Positions 2,355-46,470 of a stretch of DNA of 46,470 nucleotides are shown here, in pieces. The position numbers and the translations under genes are program-made. This DNA is from Clostridia bacterium (lineage in GTDB: Bacteria; Bacillota_A; Clostridia; Oscillospirales; Acutalibacteraceae): positions 1-46,470 of the forward strand of contig JAFYUD010000243.1 in assembly GCA_017549665.1 (NCBI GenBank), read 5' to 3'. Position 1 is the stretch's first letter; every line of letters begins with the position of its first letter. The notes beneath the pieces were generated by a model. The model saw only the letters and a list, made by a program, of their open reading frames with translations, ran no database searches and was not told the DNA's origin.

Positions 2355-2371
2355 TTAAATTTCACATTAAA

Positions 2372-2405
2372 ACAGCACCCTTTTTCAGGGTGCTGTATTT
2401 CTTTT
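2372..2405. terminator. Bidirectional terminator
   Basis: Perfect ten-base stem ACAGCACCCT (2372-2381) with AGGGTGCTGT (2387-2396), T-rich on the plus side and A-rich on the other, lying between the convergent small-peptide and PrsW genes. It can serve both strands. Confidence 0.75.
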
Positions 2406-2411
2406 GCCTTT

Positions 2412-10436: not shown

Positions 10437-10466
10437 TTATTAGAATATAAGTACGGAGTGATCAGT

Positions 10467-19861: not shown

Positions 19862-19889
19862 TTGACTTTTATTTTTATTTAAGTATAAT
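19862..19889 (+). promoter_or_regulatory. Promoter of the VWA-tubulin operon
   Basis: TTGACT (19862-19867), 16-base spacer, TATAAT (19884-19889). The 330-base gap 19671-20000 holds this promoter, the divergent TIR promoter, and a leader of about 105 bases with a small TCGAC-AATG-GTCGA inverted repeat near 19933. I see no other gene in it. Confidence 0.6.
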
Positions 19890-20000: not shown

Positions 20001-22202
20001 ATGGAAAGTCGTATCAAAAAAACGGGCGGCAACGCACGTAAAGCGGCAGTTTCTGTTTTAAGCATGCTTCTTGCATTGCTGATGCTCTTTTCCGTATGCT
20101 CAGTAGTCGCATTTGCTGACGAAGAAGCAAAGGAAGACATGCAGACAACAGTTACAAATGCACGAGACAGCATAAGACGTGAAATCAACGTTGTTTTTGA
20201 TAATTCATCGTCAATGTATCAGAATACGGACAGATGGTGTTATGCAAAATATGCGATGGAAGCTTTCGTAGCGATGCTGAATCCGAACGATGTTCTCAGA
20301 GTTTATACGCTTAATCCTGTTACAACAACAGGTCGTAACTCAGGAAGTACAGATCCGATTGTGATAAGCGGTGCCGATAAAACAGCAGGTATTGATCTTA
20401 TCCACAATATGTACTCAACAAAGGCTAACGGAAACACGCATTTCCCTCCCGTTCAGAATGCAGCTTCAGGCTTCAAGGGTGAAAATACAGTAAAGTATCT
20501 TGTTATTCTTTCAGACGGTATGTTTACAGAGGATACAGCCGCAGGTAATGCAAAGGCACTTGATACTGAATATGTAAACACTGAGATCGAAAAGATCGCA
20601 GCAAGATCAGACCTTAATATGCTTTACCTGATCATGGGTGCGAAAAGCTCTTCAATTGAAGCTCCCAGCCTTAAGATGAATGAAGCTTGTGCTGATCAGG
20701 GTGCGATCATTCAGGGTGTAAATAAGGTCTGCAACTATATTTTCGGACGTAATGAGCTTGATGATGATTACTACGATGAATCTGAAATAGAGCTTGAAAT
20801 CTCAATGAAGAATCTTATTGTTTTTGTACAGGGTGCAAATGCAAACATCGGAGCTATTTCTTCATCAGACGGCAAGAGCTACACTCCCAAGGTTCAGAAA
20901 ATCACATACAGTGACAAGAGCTCTCCCGATACAGACATAAAGGTCAATGAAAGCCTTAACGGTTGTATCGCAACATTTGAAAATGTGCCTTCCGGTGAGT
21001 ATAAGATAAACTACAGCGGTGAAATCACAGTATTCTATGAGCCTGATATCGACGTTGCATATAACCTTATCGATAATGCAACAGAAAAGGCTGTCGTTCC
21101 CAATGAAAAAGGTGAGATTGATTCAGGTGAATACACAATCGACCTTTTCTTTGTTGATGCAATGACAGGCGCTGATATCACAGACAGTGATCTTATCAAG
21201 GGTAAGAATGACAACACTCTCAGCGCAACTGTAAAAATCGAAGGTCAGGAAGACAGAGTTGTTGAAGACGGCGCTCCCGTTGTTCTTACAGCAAATAAGA
21301 ATACAGAAATCAAAGTCAAAGGTACATATCTTGACGACTATACAATCACAGGCAGCGGAAAGAACGGTCTGGGAGATTTCAAGGTTGTTGACAACCCCTT
21401 CAAGTGCGAAATCTCAGTGGGTAACGATTATTTCTGTACAATAAATGCAGATTCATGGGAAAGCTTCGTCATCAGCTTTGAAATAGACAAGCGTCCGGCA
21501 ACAGCAGATGATCTTGCAAAAATCAAAATCACATCTGTTGAGATAAAAGACGGTAAAAAAGATTATCCCATCAAGTACGAGCTTACAGAAGATAAGGCAG
21601 AAGGCTGTTACAAGCTCAAGCTGAAGATACCCGAGGGTAAATCAGCAGCTTCTGTCTGCGGTAAGGGTACAATTACAGTCAATGCCGAATATCAGCTCGG
21701 CGGCGGTGTTGCAACGGATCATGACAAGATTTCATTCGAGATAAGCACAATTCCTCAGTGGGCAAAGATTCTCATCATCTGCGGAAGCATTCTCGGCACA
21801 ATCGGTCTTATCGCATTTATCCTTACAAGAAAGGTTTATCCCAAGCATATGTGGCTTGATGTAAACGGAAGAACTTTCAAGATTCAGATTTCAAGAGGCT
21901 CTGCATCACTCAGACCTGCAGGTGCAAGAGACGGTCTCGAGCTTTCACTCAAGCCATCATGTACTGTTTTTGATCTGTACTTCAAGAAAAAACCGAGCGT
22001 TTTTGTTGACGGTGTAAAGCCTAGTGCAGGTATTAAAAACTTCTCACTCAAGGGCAACAGCTATGTAAGAAACACAAACGGAAGCTGGCCTGAAGAGGTT
22101 GAGAAATTCAAGAAGAAAATGAAAATCGTAGGAAACAGCAACGAGTGTGCATGGGTTTCTTCAAAGGGAAGCTGCAGCGGCGTTGTCAAGTTCAAGCGAT
22201 GA
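20001..22202 (+). CDS. Secreted VWA protein anchored by a C-terminal TM helix
   Basis: A 733-residue protein. Seen: signal peptide (about 12-39), then a von Willebrand A domain from about residue 62 with an intact MIDAS motif VVFDNSSSM (D67, S69, S71) and a later LVILSDGMF (MIDAS Asp). After that come β-rich domains, a membrane helix (about 586-610) and a cytoplasmic C-terminal domain of about 115 residues (β-rich, ending KFKR) that could contact the tubulin-like protein encoded next. Known: VWA domains bind protein partners through a metal ion. Inference: outer ligand-binding or assembly part of the machine encoded by the operon. The next gene starts 33 bases later. Confidence 0.85.
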   Translation: MESRIKKTGGNARKAAVSVLSMLLALLMLFSVCSVVAFADEEAKEDMQTTVTNARDSIRREINVVFDNSSSMYQNTDRWCYAKYAMEAFVAMLNPNDVLRVYTLNPVTTTGRNSGSTDPIVISGADKTAGIDLIHNMYSTKANGNTHFPPVQNAASGFKGENTVKYLVILSDGMFTEDTAAGNAKALDTEYVNTEIEKIAARSDLNMLYLIMGAKSSSIEAPSLKMNEACADQGAIIQGVNKVCNYIFGRNELDDDYYDESEIELEISMKNLIVFVQGANANIGAISSSDGKSYTPKVQKITYSDKSSPDTDIKVNESLNGCIATFENVPSGEYKINYSGEITVFYEPDIDVAYNLIDNATEKAVVPNEKGEIDSGEYTIDLFFVDAMTGADITDSDLIKGKNDNTLSATVKIEGQEDRVVEDGAPVVLTANKNTEIKVKGTYLDDYTITGSGKNGLGDFKVVDNPFKCEISVGNDYFCTINADSWESFVISFEIDKRPATADDLAKIKITSVEIKDGKKDYPIKYELTEDKAEGCYKLKLKIPEGKSAASVCGKGTITVNAEYQLGGGVATDHDKISFEISTIPQWAKILIICGSILGTIGLIAFILTRKVYPKHMWLDVNGRTFKIQISRGSASLRPAGARDGLELSLKPSCTVFDLYFKKKPSVFVDGVKPSAGIKNFSLKGNSYVRNTNGSWPEEVEKFKKKMKIVGNSNECAWVSSKGSCSGVVKFKR

Positions 22203-22235
22203 AAATAAAAATATTATAAACGGAGGATATAAATC

Positions 22236-25200
22236 ATGGGCAAAGAAAATCTCAAATCAAATAGTGTAGGCGCAACATTATTTGTAGGTGTCGGTGGTAT
22301 CGGCTCAAAAATCATCAAGGGTATTGCAACAAGAGCAATCAACGATGATATTGACAGCGTAAGATTCTGTGTTCTTGACACAGACGTCAATGATCTTACC
22401 AAGCTTGAAAACGGAGCTGTTGTTGAAACAATCCAGACATCATCTCCCAGATCAATCAAGGACTACCTTGCAAACGACACAAGTGCAAAGAAGCAGTGGT
22501 TCCCCGAGAACAGAATTCTCGACGACAAGACTGTTTCAGAAGGTGCAGGTCAGATCAGAGCTATTTCAAGACTTGCTATCAATGCAACAATCAAACAGGG
22601 TAACATTATGACCCTTTACAGATGCATCGATGAGCTTTACCTTAAGGACGGTGCAGATAAGAAGCAGGCTGTCAAGGTTGTTATTGCATCAACAGCAGCC
22701 GGCGGTACAGGTTCAGGTATCGCAATGATCGCAGGTATGCTTGTAAGACAGTATATCAGAAAGAACTACCCCGAATCAGCAGCTATCATCCGTGGTCTTC
22801 TCCTCCTTCCCAGTGTTATGGATACAGTTATCGACACTGAAAGTGAAAGAGAATCTCTCAGAAGAAACGGTTACGCAACTATCAAGGAAATCAACGCCTT
22901 CATGATGAAGGGCAGCGGATTCTTTGATTCAGTACCCGATCTCAGAAGATACAAGGATCTTCATATTGCTGTTCCCACAACAGCAGCAGGCTTTGACAGA
23001 CTTGACTGTCTTCCCTTCGACTTCTGCTTCCTTATGGACAGAGCAGACTCAAATCAGGGCAGCATGCAGACTCTTACTCAGTATATTGAGAGTGCATCAC
23101 AGAGCCTTTACGAACAGAACATCGGTCCCATGAAGAAGGGCGCTTCCAGTAAGGAAGACAATATCATCAAGGAATTCATCAGTCCCGAAAAGCTCGGCAG
23201 ATGCCGTTTCGGCGGTGTCGGTGCTGCTATCCTCAGATATCCTTACATGGACATCAGAAATTACGTAGCATATAACTGGCTCCTTCAGGCATTGCTCGGC
23301 AGTGCTGACGGTGTAGAGTGCGTTGACGAAATCGAAGAGACAGTCGGCGACTCATGGATCAAGTACGACAAGAAGTTCGCAGAAGAAAAGAAAAAGTACG
23401 ACTCAGATCCCTTCTCAAATATGGATGACGAACCCGTTCTTTCAGAAACATATATGAGAGAAGTTGAAAATGATACATCAATGTTCTCAGCTGTAATCAG
23501 AGAAAAGAACCTTTTCAAGAAGATTGCAGAAGTTGACGAAGCTGTTATCAACGAAGGCGGTACAGACTTCAAGAGCAAGATGCACACAGTTGCAAGAGAA
23601 TATATCAAGAGCGTTGTAACAGAGACAGTTGAAAATCACGTTGAAACACTCATCGATTCAGACAGCCCCGGAATTGCAAAGACATACGCAGATCAGGGTT
23701 CACTTCATTCAAGATTCATGGCTTGTTCAGAGCTTAATGATCTTGCAACAGGCGTAAAGACAGTTGAGGCAGCACGTGACTTTGCAAAGAGCATATTCTC
23801 AAGCCGTACAGCTGTTCAGAAGAAGGGTCTCGAAGATTTCGCATTTGAGAGATACTTCACAGCAAGAGGCGATGCTCTTCATCCCAATGCAATCAGATAT
23901 CTTCTTTATGTTCTTTACGAAGAGCTTACTGCAGCTCTTGATGGTACACCCTGCGACAACGCTAAGTACGAATCAGCTGTTGATGCAATCATCAACGGTG
24001 AGCGTGATGACGAAGGCAATGTTGATACAAGCGAATTCCAGATTCTTGGTCAGGGCAAGGAAGGCAACCTTGAAATGATGTGTAAGCATCTTGATGAGGC
24101 AGGCAAGCTTGCATCAGGTAAGGTTGAGGATTGTAACGAAATGCTCAACAGCTACTATCAGAAGGCTCTTTCACAGTACACAAATGTTGTAAAGGTTACT
24201 ATCTGTGATGTTGCACTTCCCATCGTAAAGGGTCTTATCGAAGCATTTGAAGAGTTCTACACAAGCTTCAACACAGAAGTAAAGAACGTTCTTATTTCTA
24301 AAGAATCAATCATCGGTAAGCTCAGATTCAGAAACGGTGATATCGTTATCAATGTCTGCGGCAGCAAGGCTCAGCTTGATAAGATCAGCGAAAAGTGCCC
24401 CTACTCAACAAACGGTATGGCAATGAGCCCTGAGCTCAACGCAAACATCTTCAATGCTATCAGAAAGCAGATGTTCAACAAGGAAGTTGTTTCAAGTGAT
24501 GCATTTGCAGCAGTAAAGAATGTTGATGTCTTCAATGAAATCATCGTTGAATATTTCCGTAACCTTGTTGAAACAGCATGTGCAGATGTTATCGATAAGG
24601 ATATCCTCAGAGCTCTTAAGCTTGAATATAATGTAAAATGTGCAATTGAAGGTACAGAAAGTGAAGTTGCTAACGAAAGAATCAGAGATTCTTACATCAA
24701 GAAGGCAATTGACAAGGCTCAGAATCTTGCAGCGCCCAGCATTATCAATAACAACTTTGATGAAAGAAGAGAAGTATGTGCTGTTACATGCAATGATGCT
24801 CTTGCTGATGGTGAAGGTCTGAGAGTAAATGATTTCCTTTCAAGAGCAGAAAAATCTGACACAGTTTCAAAGTACGAGCTCAGATTCTTCAGATCTCTTT
24901 ATAATGTAATGCCCACACAGCTTTCAAAATTCTGCGATCCCGATGCTATTGAAGACGGCTCAGCAAAGCCCCTTGATCTTGAAGGCAATCAGCAGAGAAG
25001 AGGTGAGTACTTCCGTGCTTACCAGGCATACATGGAGGACATCGGTCCCGATTGTAAGAAGAATGCTGTTATCACTCCTCATATCGACAAGCGCTGGAAT
25101 TCAATTTCAGTAATGCCCGAGCTTGATCTTGATTATCAGCATGGTCTTATGATGCACATTCAGCAGGCTTTCTTCTACGGTGTTGTTTTTGAAAACATTG

Positions 25201-25874
25201 AAAGATATGTTCCTTCAAAGGTTGATCCCGAAAGAAAGATCTACAGATATATCACAGGCAGAGAAGGTTACAAGACTCTCACTGTTTCAAACGGCACAGA
25301 GTGTGACCTTCCCTACGAAGTTCTTGATGCTCTCTATTTCGACAGAGCAGCAGTAAAGGCTATCCATAAGTACGAAAACGACATGCGTGCAAATGATGAA
25401 TCTGAAAGCCACGGCTACGAAGATACAAAGTTCTACCACTGCATTCAGAACTTCACAAGAGACCGCATTGTTGACCACTTCGAAGAGGAGCTTCCCGAGT
25501 TTGAAGGTAAGGAATACGCAAAGACATCTGTATTTGATCTTCCCATCATTTACTACAACTCTCTTCCTCCTCAGAAGAAGGATGCTGCAGAAATCGATTC
25601 AATGGTTGATGCAATCATCTGTGCTGTTACAAAGCAGATGAATTCATTCCTTGATGCTGCAGACGTAAATCCCTCTCTTGCAAAGTTCCTCAGCGAGCAG
25701 TTCAATCTTCTTGTTGCTAACTATCTCAGATATCCCAGACAGCTTGGCAGAGGCATCGAAATCTCCTCCAACGATGTTATGAATATCATCAGAAAGAAGA
25801 TCATCCAGAATATCGAAGATCTTGATGTTTCAAGCAAGTTTGTTGACAGCGTTAAGGATCTCAGAAGCATCTGA
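22236..25874 (+). CDS. Large tubulin/FtsZ-like GTPase (Tubulin_2 type)
   Basis: A 1212-residue protein. Seen: an N-terminal Rossmann-like GTP-binding start LFVGVGGIGSKIIKGIA (residues 15-31), a later VVIASTAAGGTGSGIAMIAG carrying the tubulin/FtsZ signature GGTGSG near residue 157, and a long α-rich C-terminal part (about 400-1212) with no family that I recognise. No membrane helix. Known: such proteins are called tubulin-like (Tubulin_2) and are poorly studied. Inference: a polymerising or switch GTPase working with the VWA protein upstream. Lys is mostly AAG and codons often end in C, unlike neighbours, which suggests high expression. Strong ribosome site CGGAGGA. Confidence 0.85.
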   Translation: MGKENLKSNSVGATLFVGVGGIGSKIIKGIATRAINDDIDSVRFCVLDTDVNDLTKLENGAVVETIQTSSPRSIKDYLANDTSAKKQWFPENRILDDKTVSEGAGQIRAISRLAINATIKQGNIMTLYRCIDELYLKDGADKKQAVKVVIASTAAGGTGSGIAMIAGMLVRQYIRKNYPESAAIIRGLLLLPSVMDTVIDTESERESLRRNGYATIKEINAFMMKGSGFFDSVPDLRRYKDLHIAVPTTAAGFDRLDCLPFDFCFLMDRADSNQGSMQTLTQYIESASQSLYEQNIGPMKKGASSKEDNIIKEFISPEKLGRCRFGGVGAAILRYPYMDIRNYVAYNWLLQALLGSADGVECVDEIEETVGDSWIKYDKKFAEEKKKYDSDPFSNMDDEPVLSETYMREVENDTSMFSAVIREKNLFKKIAEVDEAVINEGGTDFKSKMHTVAREYIKSVVTETVENHVETLIDSDSPGIAKTYADQGSLHSRFMACSELNDLATGVKTVEAARDFAKSIFSSRTAVQKKGLEDFAFERYFTARGDALHPNAIRYLLYVLYEELTAALDGTPCDNAKYESAVDAIINGERDDEGNVDTSEFQILGQGKEGNLEMMCKHLDEAGKLASGKVEDCNEMLNSYYQKALSQYTNVVKVTICDVALPIVKGLIEAFEEFYTSFNTEVKNVLISKESIIGKLRFRNGDIVINVCGSKAQLDKISEKCPYSTNGMAMSPELNANIFNAIRKQMFNKEVVSSDAFAAVKNVDVFNEIIVEYFRNLVETACADVIDKDILRALKLEYNVKCAIEGTESEVANERIRDSYIKKAIDKAQNLAAPSIINNNFDERREVCAVTCNDALADGEGLRVNDFLSRAEKSDTVSKYELRFFRSLYNVMPTQLSKFCDPDAIEDGSAKPLDLEGNQQRRGEYFRAYQAYMEDIGPDCKKNAVITPHIDKRWNSISVMPELDLDYQHGLMMHIQQAFFYGVVFENIERYVPSKVDPERKIYRYITGREGYKTLTVSNGTECDLPYEVLDALYFDRAAVKAIHKYENDMRANDESESHGYEDTKFYHCIQNFTRDRIVDHFEEELPEFEGKEYAKTSVFDLPIIYYNSLPPQKKDAAEIDSMVDAIICAVTKQMNSFLDAADVNPSLAKFLSEQFNLLVANYLRYPRQLGRGIEISSNDVMNIIRKKIIQNIEDLDVSSKFVDSVKDLRSI

Positions 25875-25938
25875 GACTGATTTGTTGACCCAAGAAACCG
25901 CCTCTGAAAAGGGGCGGGTAAGGCGGTGAAAGATATAA

Positions 25939-27984
25939 ATGTTCACAGTTATAATTTGTGATAAGAAAATAATCAAAGACTGTGAAGAAAGTTATAGTAT
26001 GTTTTTGTCACCTCTTATGCACGGAGACTGGGCATTCTGTCCCTGGAATACAGAAGGCACAACACCTGAGGAGATTTTCCCTGACCTTATAAATCAGGTG
26101 AAGAATATTCCTGAATGGCGTGCAGTCATTGTTCTTAGTGCAGAGGCTTACGGAAACGGCAGGGTTGCCACCCGTAATCCGTACCACTACAACGGTTTCC
26201 TTAATAAGAGAGCTTTGCCTGAGGATGTCAATGAGCTTAAGGCATATCGTGAGCAGAAGCTTGCTGCATACGAAGCAGCTGCAACAAATCCGTTGCTCAG
26301 ACTTGCAAACTGGTTATGCGGTCCTGCAATCAAGGATGACACTGTTGTCATGGATGATGAGGTTGCAGCACTTGCAGAGTCTATGCCCGAGGACTATTTC
26401 GACAGACTGAAGGTTCTGGGTGTTGACCCATATTCTGTTGAGTCTGATATCTGTCAGGATGCAAAGTACAAGCTGCTTTCAGCTATGTGGAAGGACGATT
26501 CCGTATCATTCAATCTTCCGAAGCAGGTTGTATGTATCGGTGAACGCAACTACGACACAACAAGGGAAGATGCAAAAGATGCATGGCGTCCCCGTGACGA
26601 GTTCGCATATTCTGATTTTACAGAGCCGAATATGTATCCCGCAAAGCTCAGATATCTGCTTTATGACATCGATTACTGTAACGGGGAAAGAAAAACAGAT
26701 GATTACATCAACTTCCTCAGCTTTCTTCTTATATTTGCATCCAATGAGTATAATCAGGATGCAATAAAAGCATACAGAATTTATAAAATCAGATGTGAGA
26801 AGGATCCGGATAAGCTTTCGGATGCTCTCAGTGTATTTGATACAAAGCTTGCAAGAACACAGGGTGCTCTCAACAGACGTATCCGTGAGCTTGAGCAGAT
26901 TGTTCACGGAACAGTCAGCGAAGCACGTATGGATAACCTGTTCCTTGCAGATGAACGTGTGAATGTCAGAAAATTTGAAGAAGTCAGTACAGATAAGATT
27001 ACCGTATCTGATGACTTTGTTCAGATTGCGACAGATGTTCCCGGCTCCGAATCTGCAACATGGTTCGGCAAGACCGCTTTGTCCAAAAAGGCGTTTGTCA
27101 AATTCCTCAAGGAGCCACGCAGAGCAGTTTCAAGAGCTGCTGAGGCTACAAGGAAAGAGGTCGAATACGACCCGAATGACTCTGAAGATGTTTTCTACAT
27201 GACAGAATTCCAGAGAGAAGACATTGAAGAGAAAATCAGATTTGATGAACAGAGCATGGCAAATATCGTAACCTCAAATATTTACGATACAGAAAGCTAT
27301 AAGAAGCGTCTTGATTCTGAAAAAAGACGTGTTGCTTCGCATATCGACAAGAGAATGACTCTGAAAGTTATCGGTATAACAACAGGTGTCGGCGTCGGTG
27401 CGTATTTTGCAGGTTATCTGCCCTTGTTCTTCTCTTCACTGAATTCAGGTGAATCATTCCTGTTTTCAGTTGTTGTTGCACTTATTGCTTCAGGTCTTGT
27501 TCTGCTTGCAGCTGCAATTGCACTGTTTATTTTCCGCTATATGCTCAAAAAAGACGTGCGTAATTACAATATTGCAGTTGAACACATGATTGCGGAGCTT
27601 CGTCAGATGATGGATACCTTCGGCAAATATCTCGGTCATTTCAAGGGATATATGCGCAGAAAGGCACTTCTTGACAAGCTTAATCATCGTGACAAGGCTG
27701 AAACTCTTGAGTGCAGGATTCTCAGAAAACATATCCGTGATATCGAAGATGTTCGCAGTACAAACAGAATGATTTTCAGAGAGTACCGCATTTTTGATAA
27801 CATCGGTGATATCAGACCCTATAACTACAACTTCCAGCTTCCCGAAAAGTATGAGTACGGCTTCCCGCACGAAGAAATCGGCAGCAGAAAGATTGTGTTT
27901 ATTCAGCCTGACACAATTATTGACATTCCCGTAGATTTTGTTTCAGGTATTACTATCAGCAGAGAGGAGTTCTATGATGAATAA
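25939..27984 (+). CDS. Uncharacterised protein with two central TM helices
   Basis: A 681-residue protein I do not recognise. Seen: no signal peptide; an N-terminal α/β region (1-100, with WRAVIVLSAEAY), a middle helical region with a likely coiled coil near 320-350, and two adjacent hydrophobic segments (about 473-500 and 505-537) followed by a basic helical part and a β-rich end. Both ends would be cytoplasmic. It follows the tubulin-like gene by 64 bases (a small hairpin occupies that gap) and overlaps the start of the next gene, so it is part of the same operon. GGCGGTGAAAG serves as ribosome site. Confidence 0.7.
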   Translation: MFTVIICDKKIIKDCEESYSMFLSPLMHGDWAFCPWNTEGTTPEEIFPDLINQVKNIPEWRAVIVLSAEAYGNGRVATRNPYHYNGFLNKRALPEDVNELKAYREQKLAAYEAAATNPLLRLANWLCGPAIKDDTVVMDDEVAALAESMPEDYFDRLKVLGVDPYSVESDICQDAKYKLLSAMWKDDSVSFNLPKQVVCIGERNYDTTREDAKDAWRPRDEFAYSDFTEPNMYPAKLRYLLYDIDYCNGERKTDDYINFLSFLLIFASNEYNQDAIKAYRIYKIRCEKDPDKLSDALSVFDTKLARTQGALNRRIRELEQIVHGTVSEARMDNLFLADERVNVRKFEEVSTDKITVSDDFVQIATDVPGSESATWFGKTALSKKAFVKFLKEPRRAVSRAAEATRKEVEYDPNDSEDVFYMTEFQREDIEEKIRFDEQSMANIVTSNIYDTESYKKRLDSEKRRVASHIDKRMTLKVIGITTGVGVGAYFAGYLPLFFSSLNSGESFLFSVVVALIASGLVLLAAAIALFIFRYMLKKDVRNYNIAVEHMIAELRQMMDTFGKYLGHFKGYMRRKALLDKLNHRDKAETLECRILRKHIRDIEDVRSTNRMIFREYRIFDNIGDIRPYNYNFQLPEKYEYGFPHEEIGSRKIVFIQPDTIIDIPVDFVSGITISREEFYDE

Positions 27985-30900
27985 TTTTATGACTCTTCTC
28001 AAAATGCTGGGTGCAGTTGCTCCGTTTGTAGTTTTATGTCTTGCAGACGTTAAAACCAATCTGCACAAAAGTATAAGAAGCAGACAGTTTCTCATGCCCG
28101 TTATTGCACTTATATATAGTGTAATAGCAGTTATATTGTCAAACACTGTCTGTGAATTGCTCCTGAAGCTTATTGAAAAGCTTCCCGTATGGATCGGAAA
28201 AATCTATGAGCCTTTAGGAAATATCGTCGGACAGATTCTCGGCAGCATCAACTGGACTTACGGCATATTCATTCTTGCGAATATTGCAATAATTACAGTT
28301 TACCTTATCGTGAAGAAGTCAGCGCTCGGTATTATCGGTGCATATTTCAACAAGAATAATGTTTCCGACAGAGATGTTGTTGATTCCTTTATGAACAGCG
28401 ATTCTGCAGCTGAATTTGCAAAGAATCAGGGAAGCACACTTCACAGTAAAATTGCTTCAAAATTCTATTCCTATGATGTTGGCACAAACCTCTGGTTTAT
28501 CAAGCCGGAGCTTGCACTTGCAAGAAAATATCTTGCGACAATTTTCTACACAGCACTGGGTGTTTCAACTGTTGTGCTGATTCTCTGCCGCTATTTCATG
28601 GAAGAGGACCTTATCGAAAAGCCCTTCTATCCCGTATTCGGAATTATAATTCTCGGTGAATTGTTCTTCTATATTCAGGGCATGACAAGAGCTGAGCACA
28701 GACAGGATATTTCCGGTACAGATGAAGAATCTGAAAAGATTGTTAACTATACTCTTCTCCGGGCAAGACTCAGAGATCTCTTCGGTGACCGCACAGCAGC
28801 AGAAGATACAACAGTCAACAATGCACTCGTTGCTATCAGAACAAATGACGAGGTTATCGACAGTCTGCTTCTTGATGAATCAGACAACGGTGCAATCGAG
28901 GCTCTGGGACATTTCGTAAAGAATTACTTCCATCCCGATAATGAGCGTGAGCTTGACCAGAATTATGTATATGCCGCAAAGGATATGCTTGAAGGCAAGA
29001 GCATCGTTTTCAACAATCCGTTCTATAACGATCTTATTCCTTATGCATTCTTCCCCATGCATTACGGTCTTATGAACAATAAGAAGGTTCTTGTTGTTCT
29101 CGGCAGACACGCTATCGAAGAGGATATAAAGCAGTGGATCACAGACGGTCTTGCTGCGGTAAACAATATTCCTTCACTCTGGAGGGTCGGTCAGCTTACA
29201 AGCGAAGCTTCTGATCTTGACGTTGGTATTATCACACGTTCAGATGTTCACAACGCAGCCTTACATGAAGCAAACATGGATTTCTTCTCAAAGGTCGGAT
29301 TCATGGTAATCATCGAGCCTTCAAAGCTTCTGACAACAGCACAGATAGGTCTTAACCTTATCGTAAAGCGCTGTAAAGCAGATGACAAAAATATAGTATT
29401 CTGTTCTATTGATAAGAACTGTGACGGTCTTGTTGACTCACTTTCTCATGTGCTTATGACAAGCCTTACAGAGGTTTCCGCAACAAATAAGCATCTTGGT
29501 GTAAACTCATATATGTGCTGGGATACAGATTCTGAGTATCTTCATCACAGACTTCTTCCCAATATTTCAAGATATATGGGCTTCGGTACTGAGCTTTCAT
29601 TTGTTGCTCTCAAGAATCAGGTTTCATCAACCTGCTGGTACGGCGGTGAGGCATATCCCGTTACCGACCAGCAGTGGATCGCAAGACAGTATTACTATGA
29701 TCTTCTCAAATATGCAGGTCTCCCCACAAAGCAGGATATGCTGGATGAATATTTCAGAACTTCTGCAAATTTCTGGAGTGCAAAATGTGAGAAGAACAGC
29801 TACATGACAGTTGAAGATGAATCCTTCAATATGTTTGAAGTCGTAAGAAACTTCTCCACAAGAGCTGATGAACAGGGCTTTGTAAACGTAATTTCTTCTG
29901 AGTATATGCTCAAGGATTACATGTCTGAAAATAATTCAATTTTTGAGGCTGATGCAAAGGCTATTCCCTGTTTTGTTGCCGATTACGTAAGAACACCCAG
30001 AAACGTTGTTCTGAGACTTATTCTTATGCTTTCAACAGGCTGGCTTGACAGTGAATATCTCAAAAAAGAGCTTTCACTTATCGGTCATGCAAACGGCGAC
30101 CCCAGAAAACAGCTCTGGAAAGAAATTATTGATTGTTATACTACTTCCGACTACAGTCCTTCAGTTGAAGAGGCTTATACACAGAAGCTTCAGCTGAATC
30201 TTGAAGACGGCAGCGTATACAACGCAGGAATTGACATTATCAAGGTCACAGACAGATATAACTATAAGACAGGCTTTATCGATACAATCTACTGTATTGA
30301 TGACAAGGTCTTCATCAACAGCAAGATTTCCGAGCTGTTCAATGCAGGTTATATGGCTGAAGACGAAAAGGGACACAGCTATTATCTGGGTGCTGAGCTC
30401 AAGGGCCACATTTTCCAGAAATATCTTCCCGGTCAGTTCTTTGTATTTGACGGTAAGTACTATGAAATGATGTATCTTACCGGTGACAACCACGTGCTTG
30501 TGCGCAGAGCTGCTGACCATATTTTCGGCAGACCCGCATACAGACAGTTCAGAAATTATACCCTTGTCAATGCTGTTGATTCAGACAGAATGGGTGCTCA
30601 GAGAGATATCGCAGGCATCAGAATTTTCAATATGAATGCTGATATCACCGTAAAGACACCTTCATATCTGAAGATGAATACATACAAGGATTTCGAAACT
30701 GCAAAGGTTGTTACACTTAACGGTATCCCCGACAGAAGCTACATGAGCAAGCAGATGCTCCGTATTGAGCTTCCCGGTGCAGACAGCGGTATCGTTTACA
30801 CAATCGCAAATCTTATGAATGAGGTCTTCAGGACTCTCTTCGCTGAAAATCAGGCATTTATCTGTGCTGTTACAGCAGCAAAGCCTGATAATTATGATGA

Positions 30901-33900
30901 GCCTGATAAAATCAGACCTCTTACATATTCTGTTGACGGTGAAATTGAAGAAAATTCAATCTATATCATCGAAGACAGCCAGCTTGACCTTGGTCTTCTT
31001 GTTTCTGTTGAGCGTAATCTTCAGCGTATTTTTGAAATCGTTACAGATTATCTCCAGTGGAATGAAGAAGCAATCGAGCTGAGTAAGAATCCTCCTGTTG
31101 AAGACACAACTGAGATAAAGCTTCTTGTTGAACATAATGAAGAGGAAGAAAAGCCTAAAAAGAAAGGCTTCCTTGCAAAAATCAAGGATTTCTTCGGCCG
31201 CATTTTCAATCGAAAGAAGAAGGACAAGGCTCAGCGTAAGAGAGACAAGGAAGAAAAGAAAAAAGCAAAAGAACAGGCTAAGGCTGACAAGAAAAAGGCT
31301 AAGGAAGAGCGCAAGCGTGTAAAGAAAGCAGGCGCAGGCGCTGCCGAAACTCCCGATGCAAACGGCACAGGTATGCCCGTACCCATGCCCGAGGATGCTC
31401 AGCCTGATGTACAGCCCGCTGAAAATGAAAATGTTGTCTCAGAAGAAATTGCTGAAGAGAACATGAATGCAGAAGCTCAGGAAAACACAGCAGAAGCTGC
31501 AGAAGAAGCTCAGGCTGATGAAGAATCAGCAGATGAGACCTTCACAGATGCAGATGATGCTGAAGAATCTCAGCTTGCAGAGGAAAATACCGATGCTGAA
31601 ATTGCTGAAGAAACCGAAGCAGAAGAAGCTGAAGTTTATGCAGAAGAGGTTGAAGATGTTGTTTCTGAAGAATCAGAAGCTGCAGATGAGACTGAAAGCA
31701 ATGAAATGCCTGAATATGAAGCTGCAGAAGAGGTTGAAGAAATTGCTGACACTGAAGCTGCAGAAGAAAATACTGACAGTGAAACTGACGATGATGAGGA
31801 TGCAGACGTTATGATATCTGATGAAAACATGAACAATTCAGAAGGTTCAACTGAAATGTTTTTCAGCTTCAGACCCCTGATGCGTTACTATCAGAATAAT
31901 GACGGCAGCAATGCTGCGTCAGAGGACAGTGAAGCTGAGGAAACTCAGACAGAAGCTGCTGAAGAAGCTGTGACAGACGAAATCATTGCAGACGAGGCTG
32001 TTCAGGAAACTGAAGAAGAGACAGCAGAAGAAGCTGTTTCCGAAGAAGAAATTCAGGATGAAGCAGAAGATGTTGTTTCTGATGAAGAATCTCAGGAAAC
32101 ATCCGGTGAAGATGCTGCTCAGGACGCTTCTGAAGAAGCAGATGATTGCATCGATTATCACAAAAAACAGCTTTGTGATTCATACAAAGAGCTTTATGAC
32201 AGACTTCTTGAATGTCTTAACAACGGAATTTTCTCCGTTAACGATGGACTCAGTGAGTATGTTGCGGATGATATTTTCAATGTTCTTAAGTTCATTGAGC
32301 GTGATCACCCCGAGCTTGTATGGATGACTCCCGAAGCAACAGTTTACAGCAACAGTGAAACAGGTGAGGCTGTCAGTGTTGAGCTTGCCTTCGGCACAGG
32401 TCTCAACTGTGAACCCGAAATGATTGCTGAGCTTCAGGCAAAGGCTGAAAACGCAGCTGCAGAGCTTGTTGAACAGGCATCTGCGCTTGAAGGCGATTAT
32501 GAAAAGGCTCTGTTTGTGCATGAGGAGCTTGTAAAGAGACTCAGCTACGACCATGAGCTTGCAGCGGCTATTGATGAGCCTACTCCCGAAGTAAAGCTCA
32601 ATGCTACCATGTACGGCGCATTTGTAAATAATAAAACCATCTGCAAGGGCTATGCACAGGCTTATCAGTATGTTATGAAGAAGCTTGGTATTGAGTGTGC
32701 TTATGTTTCAGGTAAAGCAGAAGACACTCTTCATGCATGGAATCTTGTAAAGCTTGACGGTGAATATTATTACGTCGACGTTACATGGGATGATCCCACA
32801 TTCAAAAACGGTGAAGAGAGCATAAAGAGCCATTACTACTGCTTTGCTCCCACATCATGGATGAATAAGACTCACACTCCCGGTGACGAGGTTTTCTATC
32901 CTGAGTGTGCTGTCATGGATAATAACTATTATGTCCGCAGCGGACTGTTTATGGATGCATATTCATACGATAATGCAAAGGCTTGTATAAAGAATGCGCT
33001 TGACGCAGGTATTGTAATCGAGCTTGCATTCAGCAGTGTTGTTGAGTATGATAATGCACTGGATATTCTCGTGCAGCAGGATGATTTCCGTAAGATAATG
33101 GCTGAGCTGGGACATGAAACAGGAAAGTATTCCTATATCGAGAAGAGCCCTGTCATCATATTTGACCTTAACGGCGGAAAATCCGACGGACAGGAAGAAA
33201 ATGCTGACGGCGACAATAAAGACGGTGATGATGAAAACAAGCCCGTCAGAATGCGTGAGATTCCGCCACCGGTATTCTCAAGAGGACTTTACCACGAGCG
33301 TTATTATCTTCTTTACGGTGCTAAGGAAGAAAAGACAGTGCTCAGGAAGAAGGAAACTCTTGATTACCTTCTCGGTCTCGGATTCGGTAATAATTCGCTT
33401 CATCAGGCTCGTAAGGGTGCTGATATTGCAGCTCTTATCGAAAAGACATTTGATCCCTCAAAGCCCGGCGCAAAGTTCTGCGACTTCTGCGGTACAGAGC
33501 TTGTCGGTACAGAATATGAGCTTCTTTCAGACGGAAGAGAGCGTTGTACTCAGTGCAGCAGAACAGCTGTCAGAAAGGCTGAGGACTTCGTCAAGATCTA
33601 TCAGGAGGTTGCACGTAATCTGGAGAGCTTCTTCGGTATCAAATTCAACGCATCTTTCAAGATTGAAATGGTCACAACCCAGCAGCTTGCAAAGCGTACA
33701 GGCAGAAGATATCAGCCTACAAACGGCTTTGATGCGAGAGCTATCGGTGTTGCAATCAAGGACGAATCAGGTTACACACTTCTTATTGAAGGCGGTACGC
33801 CCAAGGTTTCCGCAATGCTCACAATTGCTCATGAGCTGACTCATATCTGGCAGTATCTTAACTGGGATGACAATAAGATTATTGAAAATTACGGTGCAGA

Positions 33901-34123
33901 TCTTCGTCTTGAAGTTTACGAAGGTATGGCAAAATGGGTTGAAATACAGTATGCACTTCTTATAAATGAAGTTGCAGTTGCTACACGTGAGAAGATTCTC
34001 ACTCTTCACAGAGATGACGAATACGGCAGAGGCTTCGTAAGATATGCTCAGCAGTATCCGTTCTCAAAGGGCAGCTATGTAACAAAGCCCACACCGTTCC
34101 TTTTCGGCAACAACCCGTTATAA
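27974..34123 (+). CDS. 2049-residue membrane protein with pseudo-helicase, transglutaminase and DA1-like peptidase parts
   Basis: Seen in order: four or five membrane helices (about 9-235); a region with helicase strand order but no P-loop (LEGKSIVFNNPFYND near 343, KKVLVVLGRH, DVGIITRSDVHNA, GFMVIIEPSKLL near 447, VISSEYMLKDYM near 640); a Lys/Arg tract (about 1060-1120); a Glu/Ala tract (about 1140-1390); a transglutaminase-like domain with C1557, H1587, D1602; two CxxC pairs (about 1836-1861) and HELTH (H1953-H1957) with a later Glu, as in DA1-type LIM/peptidase proteins. ATG at 27974 or 27977 overlaps the previous stop; GGAG lies upstream. Inference: a membrane effector with two catalytic ends. 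Confidence 0.8.
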   Translation: MMNNFMTLLKMLGAVAPFVVLCLADVKTNLHKSIRSRQFLMPVIALIYSVIAVILSNTVCELLLKLIEKLPVWIGKIYEPLGNIVGQILGSINWTYGIFILANIAIITVYLIVKKSALGIIGAYFNKNNVSDRDVVDSFMNSDSAAEFAKNQGSTLHSKIASKFYSYDVGTNLWFIKPELALARKYLATIFYTALGVSTVVLILCRYFMEEDLIEKPFYPVFGIIILGELFFYIQGMTRAEHRQDISGTDEESEKIVNYTLLRARLRDLFGDRTAAEDTTVNNALVAIRTNDEVIDSLLLDESDNGAIEALGHFVKNYFHPDNERELDQNYVYAAKDMLEGKSIVFNNPFYNDLIPYAFFPMHYGLMNNKKVLVVLGRHAIEEDIKQWITDGLAAVNNIPSLWRVGQLTSEASDLDVGIITRSDVHNAALHEANMDFFSKVGFMVIIEPSKLLTTAQIGLNLIVKRCKADDKNIVFCSIDKNCDGLVDSLSHVLMTSLTEVSATNKHLGVNSYMCWDTDSEYLHHRLLPNISRYMGFGTELSFVALKNQVSSTCWYGGEAYPVTDQQWIARQYYYDLLKYAGLPTKQDMLDEYFRTSANFWSAKCEKNSYMTVEDESFNMFEVVRNFSTRADEQGFVNVISSEYMLKDYMSENNSIFEADAKAIPCFVADYVRTPRNVVLRLILMLSTGWLDSEYLKKELSLIGHANGDPRKQLWKEIIDCYTTSDYSPSVEEAYTQKLQLNLEDGSVYNAGIDIIKVTDRYNYKTGFIDTIYCIDDKVFINSKISELFNAGYMAEDEKGHSYYLGAELKGHIFQKYLPGQFFVFDGKYYEMMYLTGDNHVLVRRAADHIFGRPAYRQFRNYTLVNAVDSDRMGAQRDIAGIRIFNMNADITVKTPSYLKMNTYKDFETAKVVTLNGIPDRSYMSKQMLRIELPGADSGIVYTIANLMNEVFRTLFAENQAFICAVTAAKPDNYDEPDKIRPLTYSVDGEIEENSIYIIEDSQLDLGLLVSVERNLQRIFEIVTDYLQWNEEAIELSKNPPVEDTTEIKLLVEHNEEEEKPKKKGFLAKIKDFFGRIFNRKKKDKAQRKRDKEEKKKAKEQAKADKKKAKEERKRVKKAGAGAAETPDANGTGMPVPMPEDAQPDVQPAENENVVSEEIAEENMNAEAQENTAEAAEEAQADEESADETFTDADDAEESQLAEENTDAEIAEETEAEEAEVYAEEVEDVVSEESEAADETESNEMPEYEAAEEVEEIADTEAAEENTDSETDDDEDADVMISDENMNNSEGSTEMFFSFRPLMRYYQNNDGSNAASEDSEAEETQTEAAEEAVTDEIIADEAVQETEEETAEEAVSEEEIQDEAEDVVSDEESQETSGEDAAQDASEEADDCIDYHKKQLCDSYKELYDRLLECLNNGIFSVNDGLSEYVADDIFNVLKFIERDHPELVWMTPEATVYSNSETGEAVSVELAFGTGLNCEPEMIAELQAKAENAAAELVEQASALEGDYEKALFVHEELVKRLSYDHELAAAIDEPTPEVKLNATMYGAFVNNKTICKGYAQAYQYVMKKLGIECAYVSGKAEDTLHAWNLVKLDGEYYYVDVTWDDPTFKNGEESIKSHYYCFAPTSWMNKTHTPGDEVFYPECAVMDNNYYVRSGLFMDAYSYDNAKACIKNALDAGIVIELAFSSVVEYDNALDILVQQDDFRKIMAELGHETGKYSYIEKSPVIIFDLNGGKSDGQEENADGDNKDGDDENKPVRMREIPPPVFSRGLYHERYYLLYGAKEEKTVLRKKETLDYLLGLGFGNNSLHQARKGADIAALIEKTFDPSKPGAKFCDFCGTELVGTEYELLSDGRERCTQCSRTAVRKAEDFVKIYQEVARNLESFFGIKFNASFKIEMVTTQQLAKRTGRRYQPTNGFDARAIGVAIKDESGYTLLIEGGTPKVSAMLTIAHELTHIWQYLNWDDNKIIENYGADLRLEVYEGMAKWVEIQYALLINEVAVATREKILTLHRDDEYGRGFVRYAQQYPFSKGSYVTKPTPFLFGNNPL

Positions 34124-34128
34124 ACCGA

Positions 34129-34159
34129 CAGGGGCTGACGTTTCCTGCGAAAGCCCCTG
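34129..34159 (+). other. Intercistronic hairpin
   Basis: Eight-base GC-rich stem CAGGGGCT (34129-34136) with AGCCCCTG (34152-34159) between the 2049-residue gene and the transglutaminase gene. It has no T run, so an mRNA-stability or attenuation role is more likely than termination. Confidence 0.45.
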
Positions 34160-34183
34160 ATTTAGATAAGGAGATAGACCTTA

Positions 34184-35479
34184 ATGAGAACAGAAAGAGT
34201 ATGCGACGACCTTATTATTGAACGCAAATCGGGTTCGTTCAGCATAGGAAAAATATTAATTGCTGTTATTCTCGTCGGTGTGCTTGTCTGGTTTGCAGGT
34301 TGGGGCAGAAAAATGATTCCCGCTTTCAATCCTCAGAATATGGTTGAGGAGGAAAGCACGGATGATTATTTTGATTTCGACGATTTTTATTACGACGAAA
34401 TAACAACAACACCGGCGTTCGATGCAAGTGCTTCTCTTGACTATGCAAGAAAGCAGCTTTCAGGCGCTGAGGCTGAGTTGTATGATATGCTTTATGCAAG
34501 CTTCAGCAACAAGGAGTTTACAATTGTCAACGGTATTGATGCAGTTACAGCGAAAGAGGCACAGGAAATCGTAGGATACATAATGCTTGATCATCCTGAG
34601 TTTTTCTGGCTTGACGGCGGAATCAGTTATACGGAAAATGCGACCACGGGAAAGCTTCAGAAACTCGAATTTAATCAGGAATACGGCTTTATCTGTGAGC
34701 CGTCAAAGATTGCTTCACTTGAAGCTGCGGCATTCAAGGCTGCAGATGAAATAATCGCTCAGGCTGAAAAGCTCGGCAGTGATTATGAAAAGGCAATTTT
34801 TGTTCACGATCTGCTTGTGGACAAGCTCACTTACAGTACATCTCTTGTTGACAGAAGATTTTCACTTCCTAAAGATGCACCGGAGCCTACAGATATCTCA
34901 ATCGGCTGCTCAATGTACGGTGCTCTTGTGGATAATCTCACAGTCTGTGAAGGATATGCAAGGGCATACCAGTATATAATGAAGGAAATGGGTATTGAGT
35001 GTACCTACATAGGGGGAAAATCCCACGGTGAAGGACACGCATGGAATCTTATCAGGCTCGATGGTGAATATTACTATGTGGATGTTACATGGGATGATCC
35101 CGTGCCTCAGTCAGGGCAGGAGGAAAGTCTCTGGCACACATATGCATTTGTCACAAGTGAGCAGTTTAATAAGGATCACACCCCCGAAATCGGTGACATC
35201 ACACTTCCTGTTGCAACAGCAACAAAGTATAATTACTACGTATTGAACGGCATCCGGATGGATTCCTACTCTTATGACGCTGCAAAAGCCTGCATAAAGA
35301 ATTGCTTTGATAAGAATCTTCCTCTTGAATTCGTTTTATCCGACAAGGCAGAGACTGACAAAGCACTGACAGCTCTTTTTGAAAACGGCGATTTCAATAA
35401 GATAATGGAAGAGCTTGGTAAGGAGACAGGAACTGTTTCCTATACATTTATGGATACCGCAATTAAAATTTATCAGTAA
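34184..35479 (+). CDS. Membrane-anchored transglutaminase-like protein
   Basis: A 431-residue protein. Seen: one N-terminal membrane helix (about 24-43) with a short basic cytoplasmic start, an acidic stalk, and a transglutaminase/protease-like domain (about 80-425) with VCEGYARAYQYI (Cys), GHAWNLIRLDGEYYYVDVTWDDP split as a His then Asp motif, all three triad positions intact. The whole 330-residue module is a clear relative of residues about 1395-1720 of the neighbouring large protein. It would lie outside the membrane. Known: such domains crosslink or cleave proteins. AAGGAG lies ten bases upstream. Last gene of the operon, followed by a strong terminator. Confidence 0.85.
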   Translation: MRTERVCDDLIIERKSGSFSIGKILIAVILVGVLVWFAGWGRKMIPAFNPQNMVEEESTDDYFDFDDFYYDEITTTPAFDASASLDYARKQLSGAEAELYDMLYASFSNKEFTIVNGIDAVTAKEAQEIVGYIMLDHPEFFWLDGGISYTENATTGKLQKLEFNQEYGFICEPSKIASLEAAAFKAADEIIAQAEKLGSDYEKAIFVHDLLVDKLTYSTSLVDRRFSLPKDAPEPTDISIGCSMYGALVDNLTVCEGYARAYQYIMKEMGIECTYIGGKSHGEGHAWNLIRLDGEYYYVDVTWDDPVPQSGQEESLWHTYAFVTSEQFNKDHTPEIGDITLPVATATKYNYYVLNGIRMDSYSYDAAKACIKNCFDKNLPLEFVLSDKAETDKALTALFENGDFNKIMEELGKETGTVSYTFMDTAIKIYQ

Positions 35480-35484
35480 GAAAA

Positions 35485-35526
35485 CGGGATGCGAAAAACT
35501 TTTGTTTTTTGCGTCCCATTTTTTTA
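35485..35526 (+). terminator. Terminator of the VWA-tubulin operon
   Basis: Stem GGGATGCGAAAAA (35486-35498) with TTTTTTGCGTCCC ending at 35517, followed by AT and seven Ts. Confidence 0.8.
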
Positions 35527-42136: not shown

Positions 42137-42182
42137 TATCATAGATTAAGATTATCATCAGAAATCAAGGACGTGTTTATAT

Positions 42183-42887
42183 ATGATAAAATCAAAAGTG
42201 ATGTCTTATGCCGGCAAGGCACATCTTGCCGCAGGGAAAAGATGTCAGGATTACTCCTTTTCCTGTAATATAAAAGGAGTTACGGCTGTGGCACTTGCAG
42301 ACGGTGCAGGCTCTGCATCCCATGCGGCAGACGGTGCAATGATCGCAGCAAAAACAACCTGCATTCATGTCTGTGAAAATTTCGACCGTATCTATGAAAA
42401 TGAAAATGCGGATAAGGAGAAATTTTTCGTTATTGAAGCAGTGCGTTATGCCATTGAAAACAAGTATCAGACAGAGGATTTTGCAGATTTCAATTCGACA
42501 CTGCTGTGTGCGGCTGTCAAAGGTGACAAATGCATAATTCTTCATCTTGGTGACGGTGTTGTGGGCAGAATCAGTGATTCGGAGGAAATCTTTTCTGTGG
42601 TATCCGCACCGATGAATGGTCTGACAAGGCAGCAGACATATCTTACCGGCATGAAAAATGCCTACATGCATTTAAGACTTTACAGGACTGATACAAAAAA
42701 TCTCAGTTCTCTAATTCTTCTTACCGACGGACTTGCCGGTGATATTTTTGATTTCCCTGCAGGTGTACAGCGTGAAAATGTCAGTGCAGATACTGTAATA
42801 AGCGGTGACTGTGACAGCTATTTCAAAGAGCTTTACAGCGGTGATGACGATTTCAGTTACGCTGTAATAACAGTAAAGGGAGGTTGA
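42183..42887 (+). CDS. PP2C-family protein phosphatase
   Basis: A 234-residue cytoplasmic metal-dependent Ser/Thr phosphatase of the PP2C_2 type. Seen: CQDYS, ALADGAGSASHA (metal-binding D40 and G41), LHLGDGVVGR and LLTDGLAGD, in the family order; the C-terminal part is slightly short. It follows the kinase-STAND gene by 46 bases and precedes the degenerate kinase-like gene by four bases, so it most likely removes phosphate placed by the kinase. Together they resemble the kinase/phosphatase pairs of TerY-P systems. Confidence 0.85.
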   Translation: MIKSKVMSYAGKAHLAAGKRCQDYSFSCNIKGVTAVALADGAGSASHAADGAMIAAKTTCIHVCENFDRIYENENADKEKFFVIEAVRYAIENKYQTEDFADFNSTLLCAAVKGDKCIILHLGDGVVGRISDSEEIFSVVSAPMNGLTRQQTYLTGMKNAYMHLRLYRTDTKNLSSLILLTDGLAGDIFDFPAGVQRENVSADTVISGDCDSYFKELYSGDDDFSYAVITVKGG

Positions 42888-42891
42888 TATT

Positions 42892-43683: not shown

Positions 43684-43702
43684 TATTTCAGGAGGCATTT
43701 TT

Positions 43703-46070: not shown

Positions 46071-46470
46071 AAGTGTTTACAGCAGTGTAATCCCGGGTAA
46101 ACAGGATTCACGCTGGGCTACTGAAACAGAGATAAAGCAAAGCTCGACCTATATAGATCTTACAGCTGATAACTTCCATGCAGGCGGCATACCGTACATC
46201 AGTGACGGCAGACATGCGTGGGTTGATACAAAGGACAGCCATTCACTTATTTTTGGCTCAACAGGCTCAAAGAAAACAAGACTTTTCATCATGCCTCTTA
46301 TCAATATTCTTGAAAAGGCAGGGGAAAGCGTAATTGTTACAGACCCCAAGGGTGAGCTTTTCCGAAGAACAAGTAAAACTGCAAAAGATAATGGCTACAA
46401 TATTGTTGTCCTGAATCTGAGAACAATGGACGGTGACGCATGGAATCCTCTTGCACTGCCTTATGACCTG
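46054..46470 (+). CDS. VirD4/TraG-type coupling ATPase, N-terminal fragment
   Basis: The gene runs off the right edge; 139 codons are present. Seen: SHSLIFGSTGSKKTRLFIM near residue 66-84 as a Walker A with Lys in place of the usual Gly before the catalytic Lys, and VIVTDPKGELFRRT near 105-118, the typical VirD4 Walker B; then NLRTMDGDAWNPL as in VirD4 proteins. No membrane helices precede the ATPase, which fits clostridial short forms. Known: such ATPases feed DNA-protein complexes into type IV secretion channels. GGAGG lies eight bases before the ATG. Confidence 0.8.
   Translation, partial: MIREYKSVYSSVIPGKQDSRWATETEIKQSSTYIDLTADNFHAGGIPYISDGRHAWVDTKDSHSLIFGSTGSKKTRLFIMPLINILEKAGESVIVTDPKGELFRRTSKTAKDNGYNIVVLNLRTMDGDAWNPLALPYDL

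Follow-up and report, generated by a model that had tools for sequence, protein, structure and literature searches.

A probable Clostridia-type variant of the FtsZl1-vWA systems with a four-gene core and an apparently inactive, membrane-anchored pseudo-helicase

Operons that pair the tubulin-like protein FtsZl1 with a vWA protein were defined in 2010 by Makarova and Koonin, who gave as further partners a P-loop GTPase, kinases and membrane families without names (PMC2875224). Sets of tubulin, vWA and GAP1-N2 genes were later placed among conflict systems (Kaur et al. 2020, PMC7159879), and Tubulin_2 proteins appear in a further paper as a divergent, sparsely spread group (PMC9871819). Here we analyse a tubulin-like gene and its neighbours in a Clostridia bacterium (assembly GCA_017549665.1, contig JAFYUD010000243.1). 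The whole stretch analysed, 46,470 nucleotides (nt) long, is called the window. An earlier reading of this DNA (the original prediction) saw a five-gene envelope operon built round a tubulin-like GTPase and linked it to no named system of such composition; on the latter point it was wrong, as both accounts above already describe such systems. The locus is very probably a Clostridia-type variant of the FtsZl1-vWA kind with a set of four genes, encoding a VWA protein, a tubulin-like GTPase and the products of open reading frames (ORFs) 3 and 4. What is new is the predicted ORF4 pseudo-helicase with its zinc ribbon and peptidase, in a variant without GAP1-N2 and DO-GTPase2. The open-access literature searched contained no functional study of FtsZl1 proteins, described in 2010, and nothing on a partner of FtsZl1 with a helicase fold; the unnamed families in the 2010 supplement may include ORF3 or ORF4.

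The four-gene core is real and conserved, with a gene order far beyond chance. A scan of a species-genome collection with the window's tubulin-like protein gave 60 related loci (counts of 61 add the window), in which the parts were traced with profiles built mostly from those same loci. VWA, tubulin, ORF3 and ORF4 share strand and order in 54 of the 60; an order confined to this one genome, which would have counted against the original prediction, is thereby ruled out. Many gut Clostridia have this four-gene set. Tubulin identity across the related loci is 33-74 percent (best segment), and ORF3 and ORF4 overlap in many. Some of the 54 are cut by the contig at one end, and in two (L026 and L053 in our numbering) the frame of one gene is broken. 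Among the six that remain, five run off the contig (L004, L011, L013, L035, L047), while L052 has a truncated tubulin gene (5186-6370, about 391 amino acids, aa) and lacks ORF3 and ORF4 although its contig continues, as in a decayed copy of the operon. By their record titles the loci belong to Bacillota, mostly Clostridia, Oscillospiraceae, Lachnospiraceae and Ruminococcus, with Erysipelotrichaceae and Solobacterium named once each. Metagenome assemblies supply most of them, and two records carry the names of isolates, Pseudoflavonifractor sp. An44 and Flavonifractor sp. An112. The closest relative found, a Clostridia genome from yak caecum (L001), is 74 percent identical in the tubulin-like protein. 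The distribution is patchy and the system optional: within the order, 19 of 394 genomes have the ORF4 core (ORF4+ genomes below), and among 398 sampled genomes of the phylum the anchor genome alone has it.

The tubulin-like protein matches Tubulin_2 (PF13809) with 168.5 bits (cut-off 27, E-value 3.2e-49). Its AlphaFold2 (AF2) model, with a predicted local distance difference test score (pLDDT) of 83, has fold matches to CetZ, FtsZ and tubulin. A GTPase domain (about residues 11-355) is followed by a helical insert (about 356-840), a tubulin-type second domain (about 846-967) and a mixed or helical part; the model is mostly helical at 356-840 and beyond 1020, with beta strands within 846-1014. 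It suggests a complete tubulin fold interrupted by a helical insert of about 480 residues. Glycines G18, G20, G21 and G23 and the GGTGSG loop (G156-G161) are invariant in 47 aligned tubulin-like sequences, and the first glycine of the published GGGTG(S/T)G motif is not among the invariant columns. A search of PDB sequence profiles gave no convincing match. VIA lists named tubulin/FtsZ for this protein and helicases for ORF4, the absence of other families from these lists being uninformative. An identity as the division FtsZ is ruled out, because a classical FtsZ (FtsZ_C) is separately encoded in all 19 ORF4+ genomes. The idea of a cytoplasmic tubulin-like GTPase within a membrane-spanning multi-protein unit is supported.

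The same protein (P0002) is 23 percent identical to its match in one plasmid record and 27 percent identical to its match in one contig labelled as bacteriophage. The second match (L124, MT836542.1, 7027-9747) lies on an unverified 9.8-kb faecal contig, "Bacteriophage sp.", which may be bacterial DNA. A plasmid or phage origin was rejected; integrases and element ends were not looked for.

The Pfam match of the VWA protein is weak (VWA_2, E-value 0.009, under the family cut-off). The residues of its metal ion-dependent adhesion site (MIDAS; D67-S69-S71, T146, D172) are intact, and the DxSxS, T and D positions are invariant across 41 aligned homologues. A VWA homologue is present at 60 of 60 related loci. 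The outward orientation that had been proposed for it is supported, and a constant VWA protein with a signal peptide suggests a ligand outside the cell.

ORF4 sets this variant apart, and the original prediction, which took it for a membrane protein, missed its helicase fold and its peptidase. A Foldseek search with the AF2 model of the ORF4 core gave MrfA (6znp) with an E-value of 1.2e-22 and the next family with 7e-8. The predicted structure holds two RecA-like domains and a DUF1998-type module in a single fold. Walker A (GxxxxGK[ST]) is found in 0 of 42 ORF4 members, the loop reading NNPFYxDL in most, and DEAH is replaced by IEPS; none of the 42 matched the MZB zinc site (PF09369) at an E-value of 0.1. 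ORF4 is thus apparently an inactive, membrane-anchored pseudo-helicase with a predicted MrfA/DUF1998 fold. PDB sequence profiles gave nothing convincing for either the core or the peptidase, and Pfam gave scattered weak matches on the core. A protein search with the core found 324 homologues; among the 120 listed, those named by their source were hypothetical proteins, save one transglutaminase-like protein. ORF3 and ORF4 overlap at their junction, an arrangement shared by many relatives, and a longer ORF4 from a TTG at 27938 is unlikely.

In the C-terminal part of ORF4, the zinc-ribbon cysteines and HExxH (H191-E192-H195 of the alignment) are invariant in 39 of 39 sequences, and E221 is present in at least 90 percent; the window's own peptidase has weak Pfam links to metallopeptidase families, all under cut-off. 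A peptidase module follows the core in 47 of the 54 ordered loci, in the same frame in 39 and in the next frame or gene in eight. The contig ends within ORF4 in the remaining seven (the frame of L026 stops 80 nt before the end), and the peptidase is therefore fused or next door in 47 of the 47 loci whose contig extends that far. It is probably cytoplasmic.

ORF3 has no Pfam family over the cut-off, scattered weak matches alone, and its PDB sequence-profile search gave nothing convincing. It is conserved at the same position in related loci. Profile comparison with the genes in its place in Azospirillum and in L086 and L087 was not significant, so that homology there is a matter of position and general layout alone.

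All five ORFs lie on the forward strand at the positions first claimed for them. They follow one another closely, with gaps of 33, 64, -11 or -8, and 60 nt; a promoter-like site (19862) precedes them and a strong terminator (35486) closes the row. Promoter-like sites are not commoner in the region than in shuffled sequence (40 against 35.4, standard deviation 5.2). The parts named by the original prediction held for the tubulin-like and VWA proteins and the giant membrane gene; of the two helices given to ORF3, one is clear and the second is seen by eye, and gene 4 was under-described. The unit of five genes did not stand, as four genes are conserved and the fifth, a transglutaminase, is optional. 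A separate transglutaminase gene directly follows ORF4 in two of the 60 other loci (L001 and L056), and a transglutaminase domain inside ORF4 or its split-off part occurs in eight (L056 being tallied under both counts, with a profile built from the window's two copies alone). Transglutaminase was therefore rejected as a core part. The claim that these parts face outward holds at most for gene 5. The domain within ORF4 lies on the helicase and zinc-ribbon side, and because of this placement in the predicted topology it probably faces the cytoplasm.

Similar layouts are found in more divergent genomes. In two of them (G413 and G513, loci L086 and L087) the tubulin gene is accompanied by a gene of about 755 aa and an ORF4 that has a peptidase-like part and, at its C-terminus, a transglutaminase domain. 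In Azospirillum ramasamyi a plasmid carries, in order, tubulin, a 710-aa gene, a 1118-aa membrane gene and VWA. The Clostridia profiles matched its tubulin (2.9e-58) and VWA (3.2e-9) and not the two genes between. A widened ORF4 profile aligned with the 1118-aa protein over 245 columns (hhalign single-comparison E-value 1.7e-5, probability 79 percent), with two weaker, non-significant segments in line. The two matches and this alignment point to a four-part layout that probably reaches the Alphaproteobacteria. The Azospirillum counterpart of ORF4 had only three homologues, all at least 86 percent identical, and none on a further plasmid. Six Bacillota genomes of 5.6-7.3 Mb with Tubulin_2 show the order VWA, tubulin, a gene of about 800 aa and a gene rich in transmembrane (TM) segments. 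In L118, from a 7.3-Mb genome and the one of the six that was scanned further, the TM-rich gene encodes a second vWA protein and is followed by DO-GTPase and GAP1-N2 genes, which is the form described by Kaur et al. (PMC7159879).

Two families of channel-like membrane proteins recur beside the operon without being part of its constant core. Cluster 4, RCK/RyR-like by reading and by weak Pfam matches and including the window's P0012, occurs at 15 of 61 loci, and cluster 5, CASTOR/POLLUX-like by weak Pfam matches, at 12; together they cover 25 of 61. Neither was found in the other 36, where many contigs are short. In 13 loci a channel-like gene lies immediately beside the operon on the same strand, no more than 200 nt away. 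Relatives of cluster 4 occur in 12 of 19 ORF4+ genomes against two of 60 genomes lacking ORF4 (ORF4-, part of the 375 negatives of the order). For cluster 5 the counts are four of 19 against none of 60, and each of the four is encoded on the same contig as the operon, within 9 kb of the ORF4 core.

Table 1. Features of the locus in window coordinates (TM, transmembrane; pTM, predicted template modelling score; LRR, leucine-rich repeat)
Feature	Position	Strand	Properties or evidence
VWA protein, 733 aa	20001-22202	+	signal-peptide-like start ~19-37, one TM ~590-608, ~120-aa tail
FtsZl1/Tubulin_2 GTPase, 1212 aa (P0002)	22236-25874	+	Pfam and AF2 model
ORF3, 681 aa	25939-27984	+	TM 511-529 clear (hydropathy scan); second TM just upstream, by eye
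ORF4, 2049 aa (ATG 27974) or 2048 aa (27977)	27974 or 27977-34123	+	~5 TM, apparent pseudo-helicase, linker with transglutaminase domain, zinc ribbon, peptidase
ORF4 core: TM region and predicted MrfA/DUF1998-type fold	27974..31111	+	AF2 pLDDT 83, pTM 0.71
Transglutaminase domain in ORF4 linker (P0004 residues 1515-1614)	32480..32779	+	Transglut_core 1.5e-6
C-terminal zinc ribbon (CxxC...CxxC) and zincin-like peptidase, HELTH at P0004 1965	33260..34120	+	motif conservation
Fifth gene: N-terminally anchored transglutaminase, 431 aa, probably outside	34184-35479	+	Transglut_core 5e-6; TM 19-37
Promoter-like site of operon, TTGACT-16-TATAAT	19862..19889	+	11/12 consensus positions; consensus match alone
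Intrinsic terminator, 14-pair stem and T run	35486..35517	+	longest stem among 25 terminator-like sites (shuffle mean 12.6)
Promoter-like site before divergent TIR-LRR gene	19746-19717	-	12/12 consensus
TIR-TM-LRR protein, divergent from operon	17748..19670	-	TIR_2 2.7e-20, LRR
Membrane protein P0012, RCK/Rossmann-like with RyR-like C-terminus (by reading), outside operon	15893..17731	-	Pfam RyR E 0.041, weak

We propose that the system senses outside the cell and answers inside it through a GTPase switch. The extracellular VWA domain would bind a protein or wall ligand at its metal site, as its motif suggests. Binding could be relayed through the TM segment and tail of this protein to the tubulin-like protein, whose GTP-site motifs and predicted fold are consistent with switching or assembly with GTP. 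ORF3 and the ATP-dead ORF4 fold might form a membrane platform that reads the state of the GTPase, possibly together with a nucleic acid or peptide ligand. The output would be cytoplasmic proteolysis by the ORF4 peptidase, as its catalytic motif suggests, and, where a channel-like protein is encoded next to the operon or elsewhere, possibly the gating of that channel, in keeping with their co-occurrence. Overall this would be an optional, patchy envelope-surveillance or conflict system. This sequence of outside sensing, GTPase switch and protease or channel output is a tentative proposal, which we hold to be possible; identity and mechanism taken jointly have a probability of about 0.5. That it represents an undescribed class of transmembrane surveillance, in which an extracellular integrin-like VWA sensor is coupled to a tubulin-fold GTPase and an ATP-dead, membrane-anchored MrfA-type helicase serves as a scaffold that reads a ligand or nucleic acid and releases a cytoplasmic metalloprotease and a channel, is doubtful.

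Several observations weigh against this proposal. The helicase reading comes from a predicted model, and hhalign gave no significant alignment between ORF4 and two partial DUF1998 helicases; the topology of ORF4 is likewise drawn from simple hydropathy, in which four segments pass, and from AF2 helices. Both L086 and L087 have a degenerate HExxH, and proteolysis may therefore not extend to every member. Nor is ORF4 a general feature of operons with Tubulin_2: 13 of the 398 phylum genomes match Tubulin_2, ten of them over the cut-off, and the anchor alone has the ORF4 core. Among the 19 ORF4+ genomes, four were assigned by weak matches (E-values of 3e-14 to 1.6e-6). The link to either channel-like family (13 of 19 ORF4+ against two of 60 ORF4- genomes, one-sided Fisher test 9e-9) is uncorrected for kinship, and only three of the 12 cluster-4 genes share a contig with the operon. 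As for a conflict role, PADLOC 2.0.0 found 0 families at an E-value of 0.01 for the five window proteins P0001-P0005. The 96 neighbour ORFs gave scattered PADLOC matches (CARF-PDDEXK, MADS, PD-T4-6, Cmr6), which lack a control set and are not used as evidence, and a defence-island link is not shown for the Clostridia loci.

An alternative proposed by Makarova and Koonin is a membrane-remodelling or vesicle machine, in which filaments of the tubulin-like protein deform a membrane to which the membrane proteins anchor them. It draws on three membrane proteins among the four of the core, on the predicted full tubulin fold and on the published prediction itself (PMC2875224). However, it leaves the helicase fold, zinc ribbon, peptidase, and channel-like and TIR neighbours unaccounted for, and the long tubulin insert may hinder ordinary protofilaments. 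We consider it unlikely.

No more probable, in our estimate, is an anti-phage or anti-plasmid defence, in which the pseudo-helicase would recognise incoming DNA, and the GTPase and peptidase would trigger arrest or lysis. The MrfA-type DUF1998 fold, the TIR neighbours and the patchy spread would fit such a role, as would the classing of tubulin/vWA sets with conflict systems by Kaur et al. (PMC7159879) and a BREX-related island of Meiothermus, where tubulin and vWA genes stand with brxL. Against DNA sensing, the constant VWA protein and its signal peptide suggest an outside ligand; PADLOC is silent on the core genes, and the neighbour families, judged by the first 25 of 150, occur in few loci each and consist largely of metabolic, transport or repeat proteins. 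The island lies on plasmid pMtWR-220 (L100, 2322-18398) and consists of genes for a DUF1156 protein, Swt1-HEPN, an ATP-binding protein, vWA, a tubulin-like protein, a 679-aa protein and brxL; it may be a defence island with a tubulin/vWA pair among its genes. Its 679-aa protein matched none of the profiles tried, and no ORF4-like gene was recognised there. A text search of a BREX survey (PMC12839542) found no mention of tubulin or FtsZ.

The assembly, quality control or secretion of surface proteins is also conceivable, with VWA and transglutaminase acting on exported proteins, the peptidase clearing faulty ones and the GTPase timing assembly. The extracellular VWA domain, the anchored transglutaminase of some genomes and the EssC-like (L093) and FtsK-like (L091) genes after the operon are in line with it. 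Against it, the peptidase and the ORF4 transglutaminase domain probably lie in the cytoplasm, no WXG100-like genes turned up in a crude motif look, and the translocase neighbours are single cases; we regard it as quite unlikely. Finally, that chance brought together neighbours of unrelated function, which differ in kind, is refuted by a gene order that 54 of 60 loci share although tubulin identity is 33-74 percent, and by the frequent ORF3/ORF4 overlap, and has next to no probability.

If the doubtful reading as an undescribed class of transmembrane surveillance were true, the tubulin superfamily would include a signalling system that serves neither division nor partition, with a four-protein core spread from Clostridia to Alphaproteobacteria. 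The fixed core, also present in the An44 and An112 isolate records, is a defined set that can be named and tested as one unit; the predicted pseudo-helicase fold, the constant peptidase and the channel-like partners provide concrete, refutable hypotheses. A complete tubulin fold with a long insert, as modelled, would bear on the diversification of the tubulin family.

TIR proteins similar to the window's lie near the operon in L016 and L094 and, by reading, TIR proteins of another kind in L033 and L044; TIR_2 matches four of 96 neighbours. The pairing of TIR with an RCK/RyR-like gene also occurs beside the operon in L016, and TIR with a CASTOR/POLLUX-like gene in L094. Directly after ORF4, sequence reading places an EssC-type ATPase in L093 (13313-17923, +) and an FtsK-like ATPase in L091 (12159-15656, +). 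A link to type VII secretion was rejected, with the EssC-like gene in L093 alone and a crude WXG100 pattern over the 60 loci and the window giving two ORFs that were not taken as WXG100.

Elsewhere in the window, BspA-type leucine-rich repeat proteins are encoded at 35626-37449 (+) and 10458-11615 (+). The former has a dockerin-like stretch (0.00039, under cut-off) and its own promoter-like site (12/12) at 35536. A row at 37589-45079 (+) encodes a protein kinase-NB-ARC-TPR protein, a PP2C phosphatase, what by eye is a kinase-like fragment (42892) and a 458-aa protein, a set which we take to resemble kinase/PP2C/vWA triads; in L001, relatives of the PP2C, 42892 and 43703 genes also form a group (327-3279), which lies upstream of the operon. 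The last stretch, 45207-46470 (+), may by eye hold an AAA-like gene and contains the start of a coupling ATPase of the VirD4/TraG type (T4SS-DNA_transf, 9.5e-15), which the window end cuts off; an integrated conjugative element may begin here.

Compared with known systems, the locus shares side-by-side vWA and Tubulin_2 genes with the BREX-related island of pMtWR-220, whereas that island has DUF1156, Swt1-HEPN and brxL flanks and a shorter tubulin (903 aa). With the SF2 helicases of the MrfA/DUF1998 type (PDB 6znp, 6znq, 6zns), ORF4 shares two RecA-like domains and a DUF1998-type module in its model; unlike MrfA, it is anchored in the membrane, has lost Walker A and DEAH, gives no MZB match and has a peptidase fused or next door. 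A tubulin homologue, a membrane vWA protein and a predicted conflict role are common to the locus and the GAP1-N2/DO-GTPase systems (PMC7159879), but here ORF3 and ORF4 occupy the place of GAP1-N2 and DO-GTPase2. GAP1-N2 (PF20013) and DO-GTPase2 (PF19993) were each found in 0 of 19 ORF4+ genomes (DO-GTPase1 and other GTPase families were not searched), and a canonical GAP1/DO-GTPase system is rejected for this gene set. As for the FtsZl1-vWA systems, in the parts of the 2010 paper available to us (PMC2875224) the P-loop GTPase (frequent there, not universal) and OmpA-like partners are outside our quartet, the helicase fold and peptidase of ORF4 are not described, and the tubulin-type second domain that our model places after the insert went undetected by sequence. 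The locus is like these systems in its Tubulin_2 GTPase, which the model follows with a long, mostly helical part, its vWA protein with an intact MIDAS, its membrane partners and the separate FtsZ of the ORF4+ genomes.

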